Shown here one piece after another: positions 8,149 through 32,817 of a DNA stretch of 37,835 nucleotides. The notes beneath the pieces were generated by a model, which saw only the letters and a list, made by a program, of their open reading frames with translations, ran no database searches and had not been told where the DNA came from. The first letter of the stretch is position 1. Each line of letters begins with the position of its first letter. The position numbers were made by a program, and so were the translations under genes. Source of the DNA: a virus; the IMG/VR virus record IMGVR_UViG_3300028800_000199, positions 1 through 37,835 of that record. One strand, 5' to 3'.

Positions 8149-8778
8149 TTACAAACACTCGCCGATGATTTCGCGCTTGAGCGCGCCGATCTTGTCGTCC
8201 ACGCGCGCCGTTTCACCGATCATGGCGACGATCCACCAGCGGTCGCCCTTCCATTTTGGTGGAACGAAGGTGGCGTGCAGCGTGCCGCGATGGCAGACAT
8301 TCAGCGGGCCGGGCGCGGTGTGAACGACGCCAGGCGCGGCCGGCTCGATCTGACCGCCGTTATTCGCCGGCTGGCCGTCGTTGTTTGATCGCCAAAAGGC
8401 GATCGTTGCCCCCTCGCGGCGCAGCGCAGCGAGCCGCGAGCGGAGAGTTTCTGGCCACTTCGATGCGAAAGCATCGATAGTGGACAGCCAATATTCTTCA
8501 GAGCCGTAGCCGTAGCCGTCGCCGTAGCCGTAGCCGTCGCCGGAGCCGGAGCCGTAGCCGTAGCCGGAGCCGTAGCCGTAGCCGTAGCCGTCGCCGTAGC
8601 CGTCGCCGTAGCCGTCGCCGTAGCCGTCGCCGTAGCCGGAGCCGTAGCCGTCGCCGTAGCCGTAGCCGGAGCCGTAGCCGTAGCCGTCGCCGTAGCCGTA
8701 GCCGTAGCCGGAGCGATCAAATAAAATGGCGTCCGGGACTGCGCCCCGGACGACGCTTGCCGACGGCACTATTTCCAC
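8149..8778 (-). CDS. Gly-Tyr/Asp/Ser dipeptide-repeat protein
   Basis: 209 aa from GTG 8778, chosen because GGGAGG lies 8 bases upstream and the upstream gene stops at 8769. After VEIVPSASVVRGAVPDAILFD (shown in part) comes about 70 residues of (G-Y/G-D/G-S)n. The folded C-terminus contains WRSNNDGQPANNGG, GVVHTAPGPLNVCHRGTLHA and PPKWKGDRWWIVAMIGE, ending ALKREIIGE. I recall this C-terminal pattern beside GYG tracts in other phages, but the function is not known to me. The repeat is encoded by hexamers that can slip in frame. Confidence 0.8.
   Translation of the reverse strand: MEIVPSASVVRGAVPDAILFDRSGYGYGYGDGYGYGSGYGYGDGYGSGYGDGYGDGYGDGYGDGYGYGYGSGYGYGSGSGDGYGYGDGYGYGSEEYWLSTIDAFASKWPETLRSRLAALRREGATIAFWRSNNDGQPANNGGQIEPAAPGVVHTAPGPLNVCHRGTLHATFVPPKWKGDRWWIVAMIGETARVDDKIGALKREIIGECL
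8503..8713. repeat. degenerate hexamer tract GCCGTA/GCCGTC/GCCGGA
   Basis: About 35 consecutive plus-strand hexamers of the form GCCGNN (NN = TA, TC or GA) encode the Gly-Tyr, Gly-Asp and Gly-Ser dipeptides of the overlapping minus-strand gene. Every length change of one unit is in frame. Confidence 0.95.
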
Positions 8779-9071
8779 GGCGCGGCCTCCCAGGCCTTCG
8801 CCGCCTCGTCGGTGACGAGCGAGACGCTGGTGATGTCGCGAAGCTGAATGTCGACCGCAGGACCGATGCGGCAGCTTTTGCTTGGTCCGGTTGCGGCGAG
8901 GCCGGCAAAGCCCTTCACGTCCGCGGACCAATAGAGGCAGTTGCGGCCGGCGCGAAGATTAACGACGGCGCCATCGATATCGGTGGCGTAGCCGAAGAAG
9001 ACGCCGCGATGGCTGGTCGTGACGAGGACGGCCCGCTCCTTTTGTTTGGAACGGTTCGGATGGTTGATCAT
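8769..9071 (-). CDS. DUF6948-like protein
   Basis: 100 aa. The core VTTSHRGVFFGYATDIDG, RNCLYWSADVKGFAGLAATG and GPAVDIQLRDITSV fits a small phage family that I recall as DUF6948, often next to GYG-repeat genes. ATG at 9071 overlaps the upstream stop (ATGA). No enzyme motif. Family name is from memory and should be treated as tentative; the gene itself is secure. Confidence 0.8.
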   Translation of the reverse strand: MINHPNRSKQKERAVLVTTSHRGVFFGYATDIDGAVVNLRAGRNCLYWSADVKGFAGLAATGPSKSCRIGPAVDIQLRDITSVSLVTDEAAKAWEAAPWK

Positions 9072-14855: not shown

Positions 14856-15374
14856 CTATGGGACCGCGCGCGCCGGCGGCGCGGCGGCGCGGGCGCGAAC
14901 CTCGCGCAACTCGGCCGCCAGGCGCGCAATGGTGTCGCGCTGTTCCTGGTAGCGCTCGCGCCGGATTTCTTCGACCGCGCCGGCGGTGTCGCCAAGCCGG
15001 TGATCGATATCGACCGCGCGCCGGTCATATTCCTCACGCGGCACGATCTCGCGCTGCAAGGCGGCCACGTTCGCCTGCACCGGCGACAGCGCCAGATAGC
15101 CGACCGTGGTCATTGCCGACGCGAGCACGCCCGCCGCGGAAATCAGCACCATGAAATTCGGCTGCGAGCGCGCCACGACCCGATCGGCGAGCACCGAAAG
15201 CGCGGTGCGCAATTCCGTGCCCAACTGGCCGATCGACGTCTCGAACTTTTGCTCCAGGCCGGAAAAATCCTTTTTAAGGTCCCGCAGCCCTTCCTCGACA
15301 GTGCGGACGCGAACGCCCAGCGCATCCTGCCCCTTAGCTTGCTGCTGCAATGCTCCCCTCCTGCTTTGCGACAT
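14856..15374 (-). CDS. coiled-coil membrane protein (possible spanin or holin-associated)
   Basis: 172 aa. Cytoplasmic-looking helix with TVEEGLRDLKKDFSGLEQKF, one membrane segment (NFMVLISAAGVLASAMTTVG, about 73-95), then a long charged coiled coil (REEYDRRAVDIDHRLGDTAG onward). Resembles phage lysis-block proteins with a central membrane span in rhizobial phages. Start ATG 15374 gives a 41-base overlap with the lipase; a later TTG is possible. Exact function unknown. Confidence 0.75.
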   Translation of the reverse strand: MSQSRRGALQQQAKGQDALGVRVRTVEEGLRDLKKDFSGLEQKFETSIGQLGTELRTALSVLADRVVARSQPNFMVLISAAGVLASAMTTVGYLALSPVQANVAALQREIVPREEYDRRAVDIDHRLGDTAGAVEEIRRERYQEQRDTIARLAAELREVRARAAAPPARAVP

Positions 15375-15978
15375 ACGCGGTCAACGCGGCCTGGTACGCG
15401 GCCATCGGATGACATTCGATGTCGATCGCGCGCGGAACGCCGATGCCGATCGGCGCGCGCGTATCAACAAAAGCAAAGTCGGGCGGAACGTCGAACGGCA
15501 GATCAGGAACCGGATCGTTGCCGTTGCGGTATTGACGGACGGTGACGGCCTTAAGCACGTCGACGAAAGGCTGCATGCCGAAACGCGGCGCGCCGCACGT
15601 CACGATGGCCGCAACAGGCCGGTTGGCGCACGCGTACAGCGCACCAAAGCCGACCGCGAGCGCGCCGCCAAGGCTATGTCCGGTGACATAGAGATTATGG
15701 GCGCCGATCGCGCCGGCGATGACGCCATAGACGCTCTCGACGGCATTCGAAAAACCCTCATGGCAAAGGCCAAGCTGCGGATGTTCGCGCACGTGAACCG
15801 GCGCGCAGCAAAAATCGCGGAACCAATCCTGCGGCGTCTTCGAGCCGCGGAACGCCACGATGATGTCGGCACCGCTCACGACGACGCGCACGCAGGTGCC
15901 GGTCGACGGGATCGGCAGCGACGGCGGCAAGCTGTATGCATCGAGACAGGCCTGCGCCAACTTAAGATCGGTAATCAT
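15334..15978 (-). CDS. class 3 lipase-like hydrolase
   Basis: 214 aa alpha/beta hydrolase. Early strand VVVSGADIIVAFRGSKTPQD with the F-R-G-S oxyanion region, nucleophile elbow VTGHSLGGALA (Ser about 121), acidic NDPVPDLP, and a late His in IDIECHPMAAY give a full Ser-Asp-His triad in Lipase_3 order. No signal peptide. Placed in the lysis block, so it may act on host membrane lipids at release, or on lipids at entry; both are inference. Start ATG 15978. Confidence 0.88.
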   Translation of the reverse strand: MITDLKLAQACLDAYSLPPSLPIPSTGTCVRVVVSGADIIVAFRGSKTPQDWFRDFCCAPVHVREHPQLGLCHEGFSNAVESVYGVIAGAIGAHNLYVTGHSLGGALAVGFGALYACANRPVAAIVTCGAPRFGMQPFVDVLKAVTVRQYRNGNDPVPDLPFDVPPDFAFVDTRAPIGIGVPRAIDIECHPMAAYQAALTAYVAKQEGSIAAAS

Positions 15979-16957: not shown

Positions 16958-17299
16958 TTACTGATTGTCGGGGACTTTCACCCCGAGAACCGTGGTGATG
17001 ACCAGCAGCACCTTGAGCACGCGGCTCGTGGTGCTGTTTGGAATAAGCCTGGCGACGCGCTCGCACAGGATGACCAGCGCGATCAGGACGCCGCATGCCG
17101 GCCCGTAAAGCGCGACGATGGTGTCGAGCAAATCCGGCGGCTCGGACGCCGGCGCGCGCATCACGGCCGCAAGCACGAAGCCGGTGAGCGCGACCAGAAT
17201 CATAAGCGAGAGCACCGGCAAGAAGATTATCGGCGCCGGCGCCGAGCGCCTGGGGTATGGCGAGCCAAAGCGGCTCGCCACGAGGGCAAGCTTTTTCAT
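16958..17299 (-). CDS. membrane protein, holin candidate, 113 aa
   Basis: ATG 17299 (MKKLALVASRFGSPYPRR). Two to three hydrophobic segments: IIFLPVLSLMILVALTGFVL, DTIVALYGPACGVLIALVIL, and a weaker VLKVLLVITTVLGV. Small size, charged ends and place between muralytic genes fit a phage holin. Other membrane proteins in the block compete for this role. Confidence 0.7.
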   Translation of the reverse strand: MKKLALVASRFGSPYPRRSAPAPIIFLPVLSLMILVALTGFVLAAVMRAPASEPPDLLDTIVALYGPACGVLIALVILCERVARLIPNSTTSRVLKVLLVITTVLGVKVPDNQ

Positions 17300-17365
17300 T
17301 GCGAGCAACTCCGTTTTATTTGGAAGATTTACCGGCTCCCGGCCGGCGCGGTTAACGGCGGGCCG

Positions 17366-17461
17366 TCAGTGGGAAAAGTCGGTCGTACACGCCCAATAGA
17401 TGCCGAGCGCCACAACGGCCAGGCCGAAACAAACAAACAGGATTAGGGGCCAGTGCGCCAT
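17366..17461 (-). CDS. single-span peptide, 31 aa
   Basis: ATG 17461 (MAHWPLILFVCFGLAVVALG...), one clean membrane helix and a short polar tail, starting 11 bases after the stop of the DUF1906 gene. Fills the otherwise empty stretch 17300-17472. Short, so the call is modest; the hydrophobicity is unusual for a chance frame here. Confidence 0.5.
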   Translation of the reverse strand: MAHWPLILFVCFGLAVVALGIYWACTTDFSH

Positions 17462-17472
17462 GACCGGGCCTA

Positions 17473-18216
17473 TCAGGACCCGATGCCGCGCAGCTTTTTC
17501 ATAAAGCCGCCAAGCCAACCGGACGGCGCGGCCGCGGGCGCCGGATTTGCCGTCGCGACGGTGATCGCCGGCGGAATGACCAGCGGACCGAACGCGGTGC
17601 GGATGGCACGAAAATAGGGCAGCACCAGCCCCGCGATCTGCGCCAGCGTAAAATCCTGGTCGCAGGCGAAATAGATGCACGGCGGTTTCGCCGGCGCCGC
17701 GCCGAATGGCGTGAACGCGCCTACGTCGGCGCCAGCCTGGTCGGAGTCAGCGTCGACGCCGGCGATGCGGCCCTCCGGGCCTTGCGCGATATCGGCGCGC
17801 GCGCGCCATGCCGCATAGCCGGCCCAGCCGTGCGACTGCGCCTCCCAGGACAGATCTGCCAGGCCATGGCCGATGACGGCCGCACAGACCGCGCCAGAGC
17901 CATAGACGCCGACCCGATAGGGCGGCTTGCCGGCGCCGAGATAAAGCGCGCGGTCGCGACAAAATTCGCCGTCGCGCTTGCCATCGGCCGCCGAAATGCC
18001 GCGGCCGCCGACGCCACCGCACCCCTCGTGCACCAAGAGCATTTGCAGCGACGCGCCGGCGATCGCGCGCGCTCGCGTCGGCGTGATGCATTTGCCGCCG
18101 TTGGGAGAAATCGACGACATATAGCCGCCGACGATTTGATAGCCGCCGCGCTTGATGGCCGGCAGTTGCGCAGTGACGTCCTCGGCGACGTCGAGCATCA
18201 TGATGGTGTTGTTCAT
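17473..18216 (-). CDS. DUF1906 glycoside-hydrolase-like lysin, segment order altered
   Basis: 247 aa from ATG 18216 (MNNTIMMLDVAEDVTAQLPA). Family features: QIVGGYMSSISPNGGKCITP, MLLVHEGCGG, SAADGKRDGEFCRDRALYLG, YRVGVYGSGAVC, LADLSWEAQSHGW and GRIAGVDADSDQA. The segment PPCIYFACDQDFTLAQIAGL plus VLPYFRAIRTAFG, which in the family order I know stands between LYLG and YRVGVYG, here lies at residues 178-210 near the C-terminus, followed by a Pro/Ala linker and WLGGFMKKLRGIG. Probably a cell-wall hydrolase (endolysin candidate), but the move may affect the barrel fold. Confidence 0.8.
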   Translation of the reverse strand: MNNTIMMLDVAEDVTAQLPAIKRGGYQIVGGYMSSISPNGGKCITPTRARAIAGASLQMLLVHEGCGGVGGRGISAADGKRDGEFCRDRALYLGAGKPPYRVGVYGSGAVCAAVIGHGLADLSWEAQSHGWAGYAAWRARADIAQGPEGRIAGVDADSDQAGADVGAFTPFGAAPAKPPCIYFACDQDFTLAQIAGLVLPYFRAIRTAFGPLVIPPAITVATANPAPAAAPSGWLGGFMKKLRGIGS

Positions 18217-18926: not shown

Positions 18927-19331
18927 TCAGCGGCGCCGGCGGCGCCGGCGATGCCGAACACGATGAGACGGCGCTGCCCCCTGGCCTTGCTCCACGACCC
19001 GCAGCGCGATGCGCGCCAGGCCGTTGCTGCCGATCGCCCGGCAGGCACCGAGCGACAGATCGATGACGCGGCCGCGCGCGACCAGGCGGTGTGCCGGGCC
19101 GCGATCATTGACGCGCACGTCGACGGCGCGGCCGTTGTCCAGATTGAGAACGCGAATGAGCGAGCCGAGCGGAGCGAACCAATAAGCCGCCGTCAACCGC
19201 GACGGATTATAATTTTCGCCGGTTGCGGTGCGCGTCTGGCCGTGTTCGCGGCCATAGCACGACGCAGTATCGGCGCCGGCGCCGGCGCACAACAAACATA
19301 GCAATGCCGTGGCGAGAATCGCGGCCCGCAT
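18927..19331 (-). CDS. RlpA-like secreted lytic transglycosylase
   Basis: 134 aa, ATG 19331 with GAGG upstream. Signal peptide MRAAILATALLCLLCAGAGA, then a double-psi beta-barrel: ASCYGREHGQTRTATGENYN, LTAAYWFAPLGSLIRVLNL, VDVRVNDRGPAHRLVARGRV, IDLSLGACRAIGSNGLARIA. The catalytic Asp of N-D-R-G-P and the Glu of T-A-T-G-E are kept. Function: cutting peptidoglycan from the periplasm. The C-terminus ends in an Arg-rich tail of about ten residues, not usual for the family and possibly the result of a late frameshift. Confidence 0.88.
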   Translation of the reverse strand: MRAAILATALLCLLCAGAGADTASCYGREHGQTRTATGENYNPSRLTAAYWFAPLGSLIRVLNLDNGRAVDVRVNDRGPAHRLVARGRVIDLSLGACRAIGSNGLARIALRVVEQGQGAAPSHRVRHRRRRRRR

Positions 19332-19384
19332 TTTTAGAACCTCTGTTGTCGTAAACGGCGGCGCGCTTTCACCGCGCCGGAAAA

Positions 19385-19723
19385 TCAAAGCGGCTGTTTT
19401 ACGTCGATGAAGCCGACCCATTGCGTGGACAGAACGCCGGTCGACGTCGTCACCCGAAGCTGGTCGCGATAACGGCCGGGCGACAGCTTTGCGGAATCGC
19501 CCTCCGACACCGTGATCAGAATGAGGCCGTTTGCCGCGTCGGTGACCGCGATGCCGCCGCCGATCGAATAATCGAGCACCACGGACCGATCGAGCGTGGC
19601 GAGCTTCCACTCGATGGCGGCGCCGGTAAGCCCGATCGGCGTGCCGTCCTGGTCAAACAGACTGCCGGCGATCTGAAACTCGTCGCCGGCATAGAAACTG
19701 ACAAGCGGATGCAGTGCGGCCAT
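19385..19723 (-). CDS. tail-associated beta-sandwich-like protein, 112 aa
   Basis: ATG 19723 (MAALHPLVSFYAGDEFQIAG). Contains SLFDQDGTPIGLTGAAIEWK and GLILITVSEGDSAKLSPGRY, a pattern of phage tail accessory proteins with an Ig-like fold. Last gene of the tail-fibre group. No enzyme motif. Assignment by pattern and place. Confidence 0.72.
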   Translation of the reverse strand: MAALHPLVSFYAGDEFQIAGSLFDQDGTPIGLTGAAIEWKLATLDRSVVLDYSIGGGIAVTDAANGLILITVSEGDSAKLSPGRYRDQLRVTTSTGVLSTQWVGFIDVKQPL

Positions 19724-19791: not shown

Positions 19792-21477
19792 CTAGAACTT
19801 GCCGCGACCGCCATCATGCCCGCCGAACGCGGCGCCGGACGATTGACCCGATAACGGCTCGCCGCGATCGCTGCCGCGGAACGCGGCGCCCGCGGCGCGG
19901 CCGGCGAGCATGACGCGCATGGTGCGGCCGGCGACACGGACCGCGAATAGCGGCGCGCCCGGATCGATGAACAGCGCGGCCGCCTCATCGGCTGCCAGGC
20001 GACCGACGATTTCGAGCGCGACGCCGGCGCCGGCGGCGAGCGCGCGCACCACAAGCCGCGCGGCAAGCGCAGACCCGTCGTCATCGGCAACCGACAGCAA
20101 CGCCTCGATCGGGCCGCCGCCGGCGGCGACAAGCGCGCCCGCCAGGCCCTCGGCCAACGCTGGCGCAGTAAACGCCACGCCGGCAATCCATTCGGCCGGG
20201 ATGCCGGACGACAGCGCGAGCGCAGCGCCGATCTCCAGCACCGCGCCGGCGTCGCCGTGAACAAGGACCAGGCCGCCGTGTTCGATAGGAACGCCGCTGT
20301 CGCGCGCCAGGCCGCCCTGCGCCTCGAACCCGGCCGGCGCCGCCAGACGCACGTCCAGGCCGCTGTCGGCCGCCGCGCCGGCATCGGTGCCCGATTGCGC
20401 GCCGTGCTCAACGCCGGCCCCGACCACACCCCCGGCGGCCGCCATTGCCTCGAACGGCACGCCGGCGCCGCCATCGACACGATCGAGCCCTAGCGCCTCG
20501 TCGCGCGCACCGGCATCGCCGCGAGCGGCCGCCAACGCCTCGAATGGCACGCCGGCGGCGCCGTCGACCAGGTCGAGGCCAAGCGCCTCCACGCCGGCGC
20601 CGGCGTCGCGCCGCGCGGCCGCCTGGGTCTCAACGCCGAACGCGCGATCGCGGCGCACATACCGCACCGTATCGGCCGCGGGACCGGCAGCGCCGATCGC
20701 CGCGAGCAGCGCCTCGGCCGTGACGCCGGCAGCAATGACCTCGGCGAGCAGCGCCTCGGCCGAAGCGCCAGCGGCGATGACCTGAGTGAGCAGCGCCTCG
20801 GCTGGAGCGCCGGCGGCGATGACCTCGCCGAGCAACGCCTCGGCCGCCGGTGCGCCAGGCGCGAGCAACAAAAGCAAATTTTCACCCGCGGCCGCAGCGC
20901 CGCCGGCGACGGCGACAACGCTCTCGGTCGACGTTTCGGTAACGACAAGATGCACGCTTAATGTGCCGATCGGCGCCGTGCCGTCCGCGGCGAGCATAAG
21001 CCTAAACTCCGGCGCCGACCCAGCATCACCGGCAACCGAGCGCGCGAACTCAACCGGCACGACGTCGTCACGCGCCTTAACGATCGCCGAACTCTCGCCG
21101 GGAACACCGGCGCGGCCGCTGAACAACGCGATGGCCGCGGGAGCAGCCACCGCATCGCCGGCAACAGTCAGCAAGATTTCAGCGATCGCCACATGGTCGA
21201 AAGAGTGCGCCAGGGCCGTCTCGCCAACGAGCCGGCTATCGGTCAGGAACTTCGCAAAAGCCTCCGCCGCCGCGGAAACGTCGCTGCGCGCCAACGCAAT
21301 AAATTCCGGGGGCGCAGCATCTGTACGCGCGAGCGAGCGCGCGACCTCTCCCGGCATGGCCGCATCGAGACGCGCCGACAACGTCGCCTCGCCGCGAACC
21401 GCGCCCGCATCCACGATGACAAAAACGTCGCCATCCGCGCCAAGCGGCCGGGCGCCAGGCGCACCAAATCCGAGCAT
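19792..21477 (-). CDS. Ala/Gly-rich repeat protein, likely tail fibre component
   Basis: 561 aa. Long, low-complexity and repetitive: four copies of a 14-residue unit (A-E-A-L-L-x-x-V-I-A-A-G-x-x, about 211-266), two copies of a 30-residue unit (DAGAGVEALGLDLVDGAAGV..., about 291-350), and many looser P-x-E boxes (VPFEA, VPIEH, IPAEW, PIEAL). The C-terminus has a conserved-looking DPGAPLFAVRVAGRTMRVML and a Gly-rich end. An extended rod between baseplate and tip is likely. Place among fibre genes supports this. Confidence 0.75.
   Translation of the reverse strand: MLGFGAPGARPLGADGDVFVIVDAGAVRGEATLSARLDAAMPGEVARSLARTDAAPPEFIALARSDVSAAAEAFAKFLTDSRLVGETALAHSFDHVAIAEILLTVAGDAVAAPAAIALFSGRAGVPGESSAIVKARDDVVPVEFARSVAGDAGSAPEFRLMLAADGTAPIGTLSVHLVVTETSTESVVAVAGGAAAAGENLLLLLAPGAPAAEALLGEVIAAGAPAEALLTQVIAAGASAEALLAEVIAAGVTAEALLAAIGAAGPAADTVRYVRRDRAFGVETQAAARRDAGAGVEALGLDLVDGAAGVPFEALAAARGDAGARDEALGLDRVDGGAGVPFEAMAAAGGVVGAGVEHGAQSGTDAGAAADSGLDVRLAAPAGFEAQGGLARDSGVPIEHGGLVLVHGDAGAVLEIGAALALSSGIPAEWIAGVAFTAPALAEGLAGALVAAGGGPIEALLSVADDDGSALAARLVVRALAAGAGVALEIVGRLAADEAAALFIDPGAPLFAVRVAGRTMRVMLAGRAAGAAFRGSDRGEPLSGQSSGAAFGGHDGGRGKF
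20428..20607. repeat. two 90-bp tandem repeats
   Basis: Encode two copies of the 30-residue unit in the Ala/Gly-rich protein, differing at a few residues. In-frame duplication by unequal recombination is the likely origin. Confidence 0.7.
20680..20847. repeat. four 42-bp tandem repeats
   Basis: Encode four copies of the 14-residue unit (A-E-A-L-L-x-x-V-I-A-A-G) in the Ala/Gly-rich protein; the last copy is the most divergent. Confidence 0.7.
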
Positions 21478-31705: not shown

Positions 31706-32701
31706 TTAACGACCGGCGGCCGGCGCGGCGGGCGCCGACGACGACGCGGCCTGCGCCGCACGTTCGCGCGCCCGGAAAAACGCGGCGCGGCGTTCCAGTT
31801 CGCGCCCCCAGCCAGCTTCGAACGACTGCTGCGTCTGGCGGCCGCGCATGTGGGGATAAGCATTGCCGCGGATGTTGGTCATGATGCCGCGCGTGTAGAA
31901 GCCGAGCCCCTGCTGATGGATCATATAAAGTTCGCGATCGGTCGGGTCGCGGCCGAAGCGCGCGCGAAACGCCGCGCGATGCGCGCGCAACATGCGCGCC
32001 GCCGCCATGGCGTTATCGTGCGCGTTATAGATATCGCCGCGACCGAATGTGGCCCACTCGTTGTGGCCGATCTGATAAAGCCCCTTATATTGCGTGTGCC
32101 GGTTGTTCCGGTTTGATCCGGGATTCATGCCGGACTCGATCGAAGCGATGGCGCGCATCGTATTGACGTCGATGCCACCCTCACGCGCCGCCTCGCGGAT
32201 CGCCCTATCAGTCTCAGCCGAGCCGGTGCGCGGCGCGCTGCCATGCGGCGGCCGCGGCGTATAGGCGCCAGGCACGTGGTGCGCCGGCATTGCCGGCCTT
32301 GGCGTGTGGTTTGCGCGCGCCGGCGACGCCGGGCGCGGCGTGTAGCCGCCGTGCGCATGATGATGCGGCGCGTGAGATACGGGCGCGAGCCCGGCCGGAG
32401 AATGCGCATGCCGCGCCGGCGCACCGGGCGCCGACCCATGCGGATGCGTCGAATGCGCGCGCGGCCACTCTCCGCGCTCGGACCCCCCGTTCAAATCGTG
32501 CAGCTGTGTGCCGCGCATGGCGCGACCGACGCCGTCATCCGGACCAAACGACGCCAGGTCGCCCTGCAGATCGTCGAGGCCGGTGGCCCGATCGTTCGGG
32601 CCAGGATCGCCGAGCGCAATGTCGTTGCGGATTTTGGTCGACGTCGACGCGTTGAAGTGCTCGTCGTCGACCTTCACCTGGACGTTGATGTTAAGCGCCA
32701 C
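31706..32701 (-). CDS. virion lytic transglycosylase (SLT domain)
   Basis: 331 aa from GTG 32701, chosen for GGAGG six bases upstream. N-terminus VALNINVQVKVDDEHFNAST, a His/Pro/Ala-rich linker, then an SLT domain: AREGGIDVNTMRAIASIESG with the catalytic Glu, RHTQYKGLYQIGHNEWATFG, NAHDNAMAAARMLRAH, and YMIHQQGLGFYTRG. Probably carried in the tail to open the wall at entry. The N-terminal NVQV strand also occurs near the tape-measure C-terminus (DLNVNVQVEP). Confidence 0.9.
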   Translation of the reverse strand: MALNINVQVKVDDEHFNASTSTKIRNDIALGDPGPNDRATGLDDLQGDLASFGPDDGVGRAMRGTQLHDLNGGSERGEWPRAHSTHPHGSAPGAPARHAHSPAGLAPVSHAPHHHAHGGYTPRPASPARANHTPRPAMPAHHVPGAYTPRPPHGSAPRTGSAETDRAIREAAREGGIDVNTMRAIASIESGMNPGSNRNNRHTQYKGLYQIGHNEWATFGRGDIYNAHDNAMAAARMLRAHRAAFRARFGRDPTDRELYMIHQQGLGFYTRGIMTNIRGNAYPHMRGRQTQQSFEAGWGRELERRAAFFRARERAAQAASSSAPAAPAAGR

Positions 32702-32817
32702 GCTGCCTCCAAGCCGAGCGGCACGCCGCAGCGAGCGCAATAGAACGTTCGGGATGACGCCTCGGCATCCCAATAGCTTTGCCGCCTATGGCGCCCAAAC
32801 CAACAAAAATACCTCAA
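32674..32817 (-). CDS. small zinc-binding protein, TTG start, 47 aa
   Basis: TTG 32817 lies eight bases after GGAGAGGGAG, downstream of the previous stop. Reads LRYFCWFGRHRRQSYWD, then TFYCARCGVPLGL and a basic end. C-x-F-G-R-H with C-x2-C resembles the DUF1660-like small zinc proteins of prophages. It overlaps the transglycosylase start by 28 bases in another frame. The ATG at 32868 is inside the upstream gene and less likely. Confidence 0.6.
   Translation of the reverse strand: MRYFCWFGRHRRQSYWDAEASSRTFYCARCGVPLGLEAAWRLTSTSR

Follow-up and report, generated by a model that had tools for sequence, protein, structure and literature searches.

A predicted phage lysin gene of the Rv2525c/DUF1906 family with a non-circular permutation of its segments

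Introduction

To what extent nature can reorder the parts of a protein fold is a long-standing question. Natural circular permutations have been documented well; to our knowledge, non-circular permutations within a single domain seem to be much rarer in print, with few protein cases named. Two such cases lie close to the present one. The capsid protein of phage BPP-1 is described, in passages of PMC3863775, as a non-circular permutation of the HK97 fold, and the relevant portion of PMC2213659 describes a segment swap between glucokinase 1gc5 and 2-dehydro-3-deoxygluconokinase 1j5v. For the protein family considered here, peptidoglycan hydrolase activity was suggested for Rv2525c from its structure, going by the title of Bellinzoni 2014 as listed among the references of PMC12419801. 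A literature search limited to open-access papers returned no permuted endolysin.

Here we describe a predicted lysin gene of the Rv2525c-like family in a stretch of viral DNA of 37,835 nucleotides (the whole stretch analysed, hereafter the window). PHROGs matches to tail sheath, baseplate proteins, integrase and repressor place the window in a contractile-tailed phage that has temperate genes.

Results

Order of the segments

The original prediction described a DUF1906 lysin at 17473-18216 in which an internal segment had moved in frame toward the C-terminus, and the profile order agrees with this description. The coordinates are correct, and the strand, which had been left unstated, is minus. 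The gene divides as follows.

17473 to 18216, minus strand: the complete gene for the permuted Rv2525c/DUF1906-like lysin, 247 amino acids plus stop (ATG at 18216, stop at 17473-17475)
17920 to 18216, minus strand: segment A (residues 1-99), which aligns with beta1 to alpha3 of the barrel in the nearest relative, L005
17680 to 17919, minus strand: segment C (residues 100-179), directly after A; it aligns with beta5 to beta8 and includes the linker GAAPAKPP
17587 to 17679, minus strand: segment B (residues 180-210), the beta4-alpha4 unit that has moved, bearing the conserved motif YFACDQD
17476 to 17586, minus strand: segment D (residues 211-247), a linker rich in Pro and Ala and a tail that ends in GWLGGFMKKLRGIGS

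In the translation, LYLGAGKPP (residues 91-99) abuts YRVGVYGSG (100-108), and CIYFACDQDFT...YFRAIRTAFG (180-210) starts 80 residues later behind AKPP, both as first noticed. Alignment to PF08924 and to relatives, which had been proposed as a check, gave out-of-order profile stretches in the lysin and the usual order in the relatives. Along the protein, hmmscan against Pfam-A reports profile positions 2-71, 119-179 and 87-117 in that succession (17965-18159, 17773-17925 and 17587-17679 on the DNA), with a score of 52.6-53.4 bits, which is above the curated threshold of 27.2. PF08924 is the sole Pfam-A family matched at E up to 1, and at that level the lysin has no match to the GH25 profile. These three stretches do not run collinearly with the profile and, judged by its profile matches, the lysin is a permuted homologue of PF08924 rather than a regular member.

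Segments A, C and B measure 297, 240 and 93 nt, the reading frame is kept across all three joins, and the order is A-C-B-D instead of the usual A-B-C-D. As A-C-B is no rotation of A-B-C, the arrangement is not circular; the change is a non-circular permutation with its cuts in loops and in frame, and it lies far beyond chance. Segment B sits within the Pro/Ala-rich linker of the tail region. The closest relatives (L005, L008 and L013/L037) end shortly past C, and tail D with GWLGGFMKKLRGIGS is missing in all three. Among viral contigs, the pattern of this basic C-terminal tail (17476-17520, minus strand) was found only in a 56-kb contig of the same phage.

Relatives and the ancestral order

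The nearest relative, L005 (contig 3300032805_000029), reads ...LGAHKGA-CVYFACDQDF...AFA-DGF-YRVGVYGSG... and has the usual order, as do L008 (3300005529_000009) and, by eye, L012, which lay outside the search of 13 virus records with the PF08924 profile. Seven of these 13 records matched, six with one collinear stretch each; the seventh is the 56-kb contig, with the window's three out-of-order stretches. The usual order was also found in both of two further phage matches. In a tblastn search with the lysin of Gordonia phage Jumbo (L010), a usual-order member, 105 phage records gave a match, and in 104 of these a single place accounted for 80% or more of the query. The 24 listed, among them Jumbo itself, each align as one piece that runs through B into the first part of C in the usual order. 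With the L005 protein as query, 179 plasmid records matched, and the 20 listed (12 from Streptomyces clavuligerus) likewise each align as one piece through B into the first part of C. Since every other member with a visible order has the usual one, that order is likely to be ancestral and the lysin's order derived, as far as examined, in keeping with the initial expectation.

Relatives were sought with the whole protein, usual-order homologues, segment A and DNA patterns. Searches with the whole protein, the relatives, segment A and the tail revealed no further permuted copies, and distant carriers may escape exact peptide and DNA patterns. At E up to 1e-3 neither the phage nor the plasmid collection gave a match to the permuted protein, PDB sequences gave none, and the pattern K-P-P-[YF]-R-V-G-V-Y-G yielded only the 56-kb contig among viral contigs. 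One candidate, L016, was matched by the YRVGVYGSG pattern and proved not to be a relative. Two scans of genome contigs found no relative. A neighbouring tail gene matches seven records; among these, PF08924 is found in the 56-kb contig only, and several of the others are short fragments. The permuted order has been seen in one viral population: relatives sharing it had been named as evidence that would speak against a relocation, and it turned up solely in the 56-kb contig that contains the whole window.

This contig, IMGVR_UViG_3300028666_000040, differs from the window by two mismatches (16582 and 20167), neither of them in the lysin gene, which is identical in both records and has the same joins. 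It is a second record, though perhaps not an independent sample, and its sharing of the same order makes an assembly error less likely.

Sequence at the joins

The relocation had been attributed to short repeats at the junctions. The repeat GCCGGCGCC is present at 17690 and 17929 as claimed, but its supposed role is not supported: with 31 occurrences of the word on the plus strand and 29 of its reverse complement, it stands at 60 places in the window, and the two copies lie in different reading frames (GGC GCC GGC versus G GCG CCG GC, read from the sequence). Inside the gene, 15 different 9-mers are repeated, compared with 5.9 on average in a simulation (order-2 Markov, 1000 draws of 744 nt) in which 97.5% of draws held at least one. 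Because repeated 9-mers are this frequent in the gene, mostly arise in simulation and here differ in frame, the 9-base repeat does not go beyond chance, and we dropped it as evidence for the cause of the relocation. A similarity comparison identified a longer resemblance between two places.

17921 to 17938, minus strand: CGGCGCCGGC-AAGCCGCC, just upstream of junction A/C
17681 to 17699, minus strand: CGGCGCCGGCGAAACCGCC, just upstream of junction C/B, resembling CGGCGCCGGC-AAGCCGCC

They lie upstream of the two K-P-P sites, and over 19 columns they show 17 matches, one mismatch and one gap. This is mildly unusual, as 48 of 25,878 in-frame 30-mer pairs in the gene score as high. The similarity would fit a copying of B together with its upstream flank, followed by loss of the old copy. 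Other routes are possible: duplication of B-C and then two deletions, or excision of a circle that re-enters at another point, could each have led to the A-C-B order.

Conservation

The lysin keeps 18 of the 19 residues that are invariant in six relatives, including all five within B (F, A, D and D in YFACDQD, plus Tyr 201). GH25 lysozymes bear a catalytic acidic pair at the end of beta4. Because its conserved residues are kept, B is unlikely to be a spare part. Identity to L005 is 22/31 in B, 56/97 in A and 45/72 in C, so that B shows no decay; overall, 123 of 200 aligned residues are identical (about 60%). L008 is closer to L005 than the lysin is in both A (64/94) and C (55/73), and the greater divergence of the lysin's A and C could reflect weaker constraint or no more than a longer branch. 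Where the three closest relatives have the Trp of HEGWGG, the lysin has Cys. The reading frame is open, with no stop and no frameshift.

Structure models

The model of L005, built on an alignment of six sequences, reaches pLDDT 85.6 and pTM 0.87 and superimposes on Rv2525c (4pmr) with Z 23.6 over 194 residues at 2.5 A. The next match is 1sfs (Z 17.6), followed by lysins and lysozymes including family-25 entries at Z 12.4 to 14.5; the predicted fold thus resembles lysins such as 3hmc (Z 14.5). On this model alpha3 spans residues 74-90, beta4 98-102, alpha4 111-126 and beta5 133-138, and the cut points fall between alpha3 and beta4 and between alpha4 and beta5. Just three L005 loop residues (DGF) have no counterpart in the lysin.

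Structure prediction for the permuted protein, also among the proposed checks, gave a divided answer: A and C together align to 4pmr, but residues 127-175, like 215-247, have pLDDT below 50. The AlphaFold model has a mean pLDDT of 66 and pTM 0.64 (the other four models 50-56), from an input alignment composed of fragments. In blocks of ten residues, pLDDT, which is a local measure, is 62-89 in A, 82-87 at the start of C (101-120) and 80-88 in B. A sequential alignment of residues 3-172 to 4pmr covers 150 residues at 3.3 A with Z 11.3, low-confidence residues included, and such an alignment across A and C together is as expected if the beta4 gap stays open in the predicted chain. Foldseek returned 1sfs and Rv2525c first for the permuted model (E 0.001 to 0.006, TM-scores 0.31-0.42), and in BFVD the best match, spanning 110 columns, was the lysin of a Gordonia phage; no permuted order was seen among the Foldseek and BFVD matches, which proves nothing. 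In an idealised barrel with assumed dimensions, the new crossing would need about 23 A, where 8 residues can reach 26 A, and the connection from alpha3 to beta5 would need 15 A, where 12 residues can reach 40 A.

Genomic setting

The following ORFs may bear on lysis.

17366 to 17461, minus strand: 31-amino-acid ORF directly downstream of the lysin, with one hydrophobic stretch by eye, a possible lysis partner
16958 to 17308, minus strand: small ORF that by eye has hydrophobic stretches and may encode a holin, with no match in Pfam or PHROGs
18927 to 19610, minus strand: DPBB-domain ORF (lytic transglycolase PF03330, E 1.7e-13), separated from the lysin downstream of it by two small ORFs, a candidate second cell-wall enzyme of the phage
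31706 to 32773: SLT-domain ORF, a candidate cell-wall enzyme

Further downstream of the lysin, the ORF at 15334-15978 (minus strand) matches Class 3 lipase PF01764 and phrog_21992, esterase/lipase. Elsewhere on the minus strand, the N-terminal half of the ORF at 5955-7304 matches ParB-like profiles and the C-terminal half DNA methyltransferase profiles, the ORF at 8149-8931 holds a long Gly-Tyr-Gly-Asp repeat, with DNA at about 8501-8714 that matches in shifted registers, and a long Ala-rich ORF at 19792-21477 contains degenerate repeats such as EALLAEVIAAG.

Discussion

We lean, by a modest degree, towards a real and probably recent non-circular permutation of a DUF1906 phage endolysin gene, in which B refills its slot in the barrel and the enzyme works. 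The beta4-alpha4 unit would have been removed from between alpha3 and beta5 and placed behind beta8 in the Pro/Ala-rich linker, giving a chain that runs from A (beta1 to alpha3) through C (beta5 to beta8) and the linker to B (beta4-alpha4) and the tail. Function and barrel closure are inferred: B may turn back beneath the barrel and enter its usual slot, flanked by beta3 and beta5, where D186 and D188 would come together with the remaining conserved residues, and the enzyme would then cleave peptidoglycan at lysis.

The main rival accepts the rearrangement as real and holds that it broke the enzyme, leaving a young pseudogene while other cell-wall enzymes of the phage bring about lysis. The phage also carries the DPBB lytic transglycosylase-like ORF and the SLT-domain ORF, the permuted order was found in one population only, and the low model confidence at residues 127-175, the W to C change in HEGWGG and the somewhat greater divergence of A and C than in L008 point the same way. 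An undamaged frame, the retention of 18 of 19 invariant residues and a B at least as well conserved as A and C argue against a pseudogene, although a very recent event would look alike. We consider a broken gene unlikely, if still a serious contender; conservation together with the loop-exact cuts appears to favour a working barrel over a broken one.

That the order is an artefact of assembly is less probable again, since it would take three false joins in the contig, an improbable outcome when all are in frame and loop-exact. The joins are identical in two records, yet both may rest on the same or related samples, the window lying wholly inside the other contig with its two mismatches. Within 60 nt, A/C and C/B have no exact word longer than 10 nt in common and A/C and B/D none longer than 9 nt, and flush identity between any two joins is at most 1 nt; assemblers as a rule use longer words, and words so short seldom mislead one. 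We give least credence, and very little, to a barrel completed between molecules, with B filling the gap of another chain in a domain-swapped dimer, or to seven units working without B. The linker before B (GAAPAKPP) is flexible by composition, which suits such arrangements, but in the idealised barrel it is long enough within one chain, and B keeps its conserved residues.

Should B indeed refill its own slot, a strand-helix unit carrying conserved acidic residues would reach its place in the barrel from the C-terminus. We put at about even the chance that the lysin is a working beta/alpha barrel enzyme with a natural non-circular permutation, seen shortly after the rearrangement took place, with a usual-order homologue about 60% identical to it. 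A single barrel unit has moved and the sequence is still easily aligned, which would allow folding, linker needs and activity to be compared between the old and the new order in natural proteins.

Compared with the Rv2525c-like family (PF08924/DUF1906, structures 4pmn-4pmr), the lysin has the segments A, B and C in common, keeps 18 of the 19 invariant residues and scores above the cut-off; its beta4-alpha4 unit comes after beta8, whereas that of the family comes after alpha3. With the phage endolysins of the family (phrog_13480, lysin A of Gordonia phages) it has in common the family, the phage origin and a likely role in lysis, and the 24 listed members differ from it in aligning in one piece in the usual order. 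The BPP-1 capsid protein, as portrayed in passages of PMC3863775, is likewise a natural non-circular permutation in a phage protein with an HK97-like fold; it is a solved capsid structure, whereas the lysin is an enzyme barrel known by prediction, with a relative about 60% identical in the old order. In the kinases 1gc5 and 1j5v, according to the relevant portion of PMC2213659, internal segments are likewise exchanged within one fold and the binding site is formed from non-sequential parts, but the fold is another one and the swap was found by comparing solved structures.
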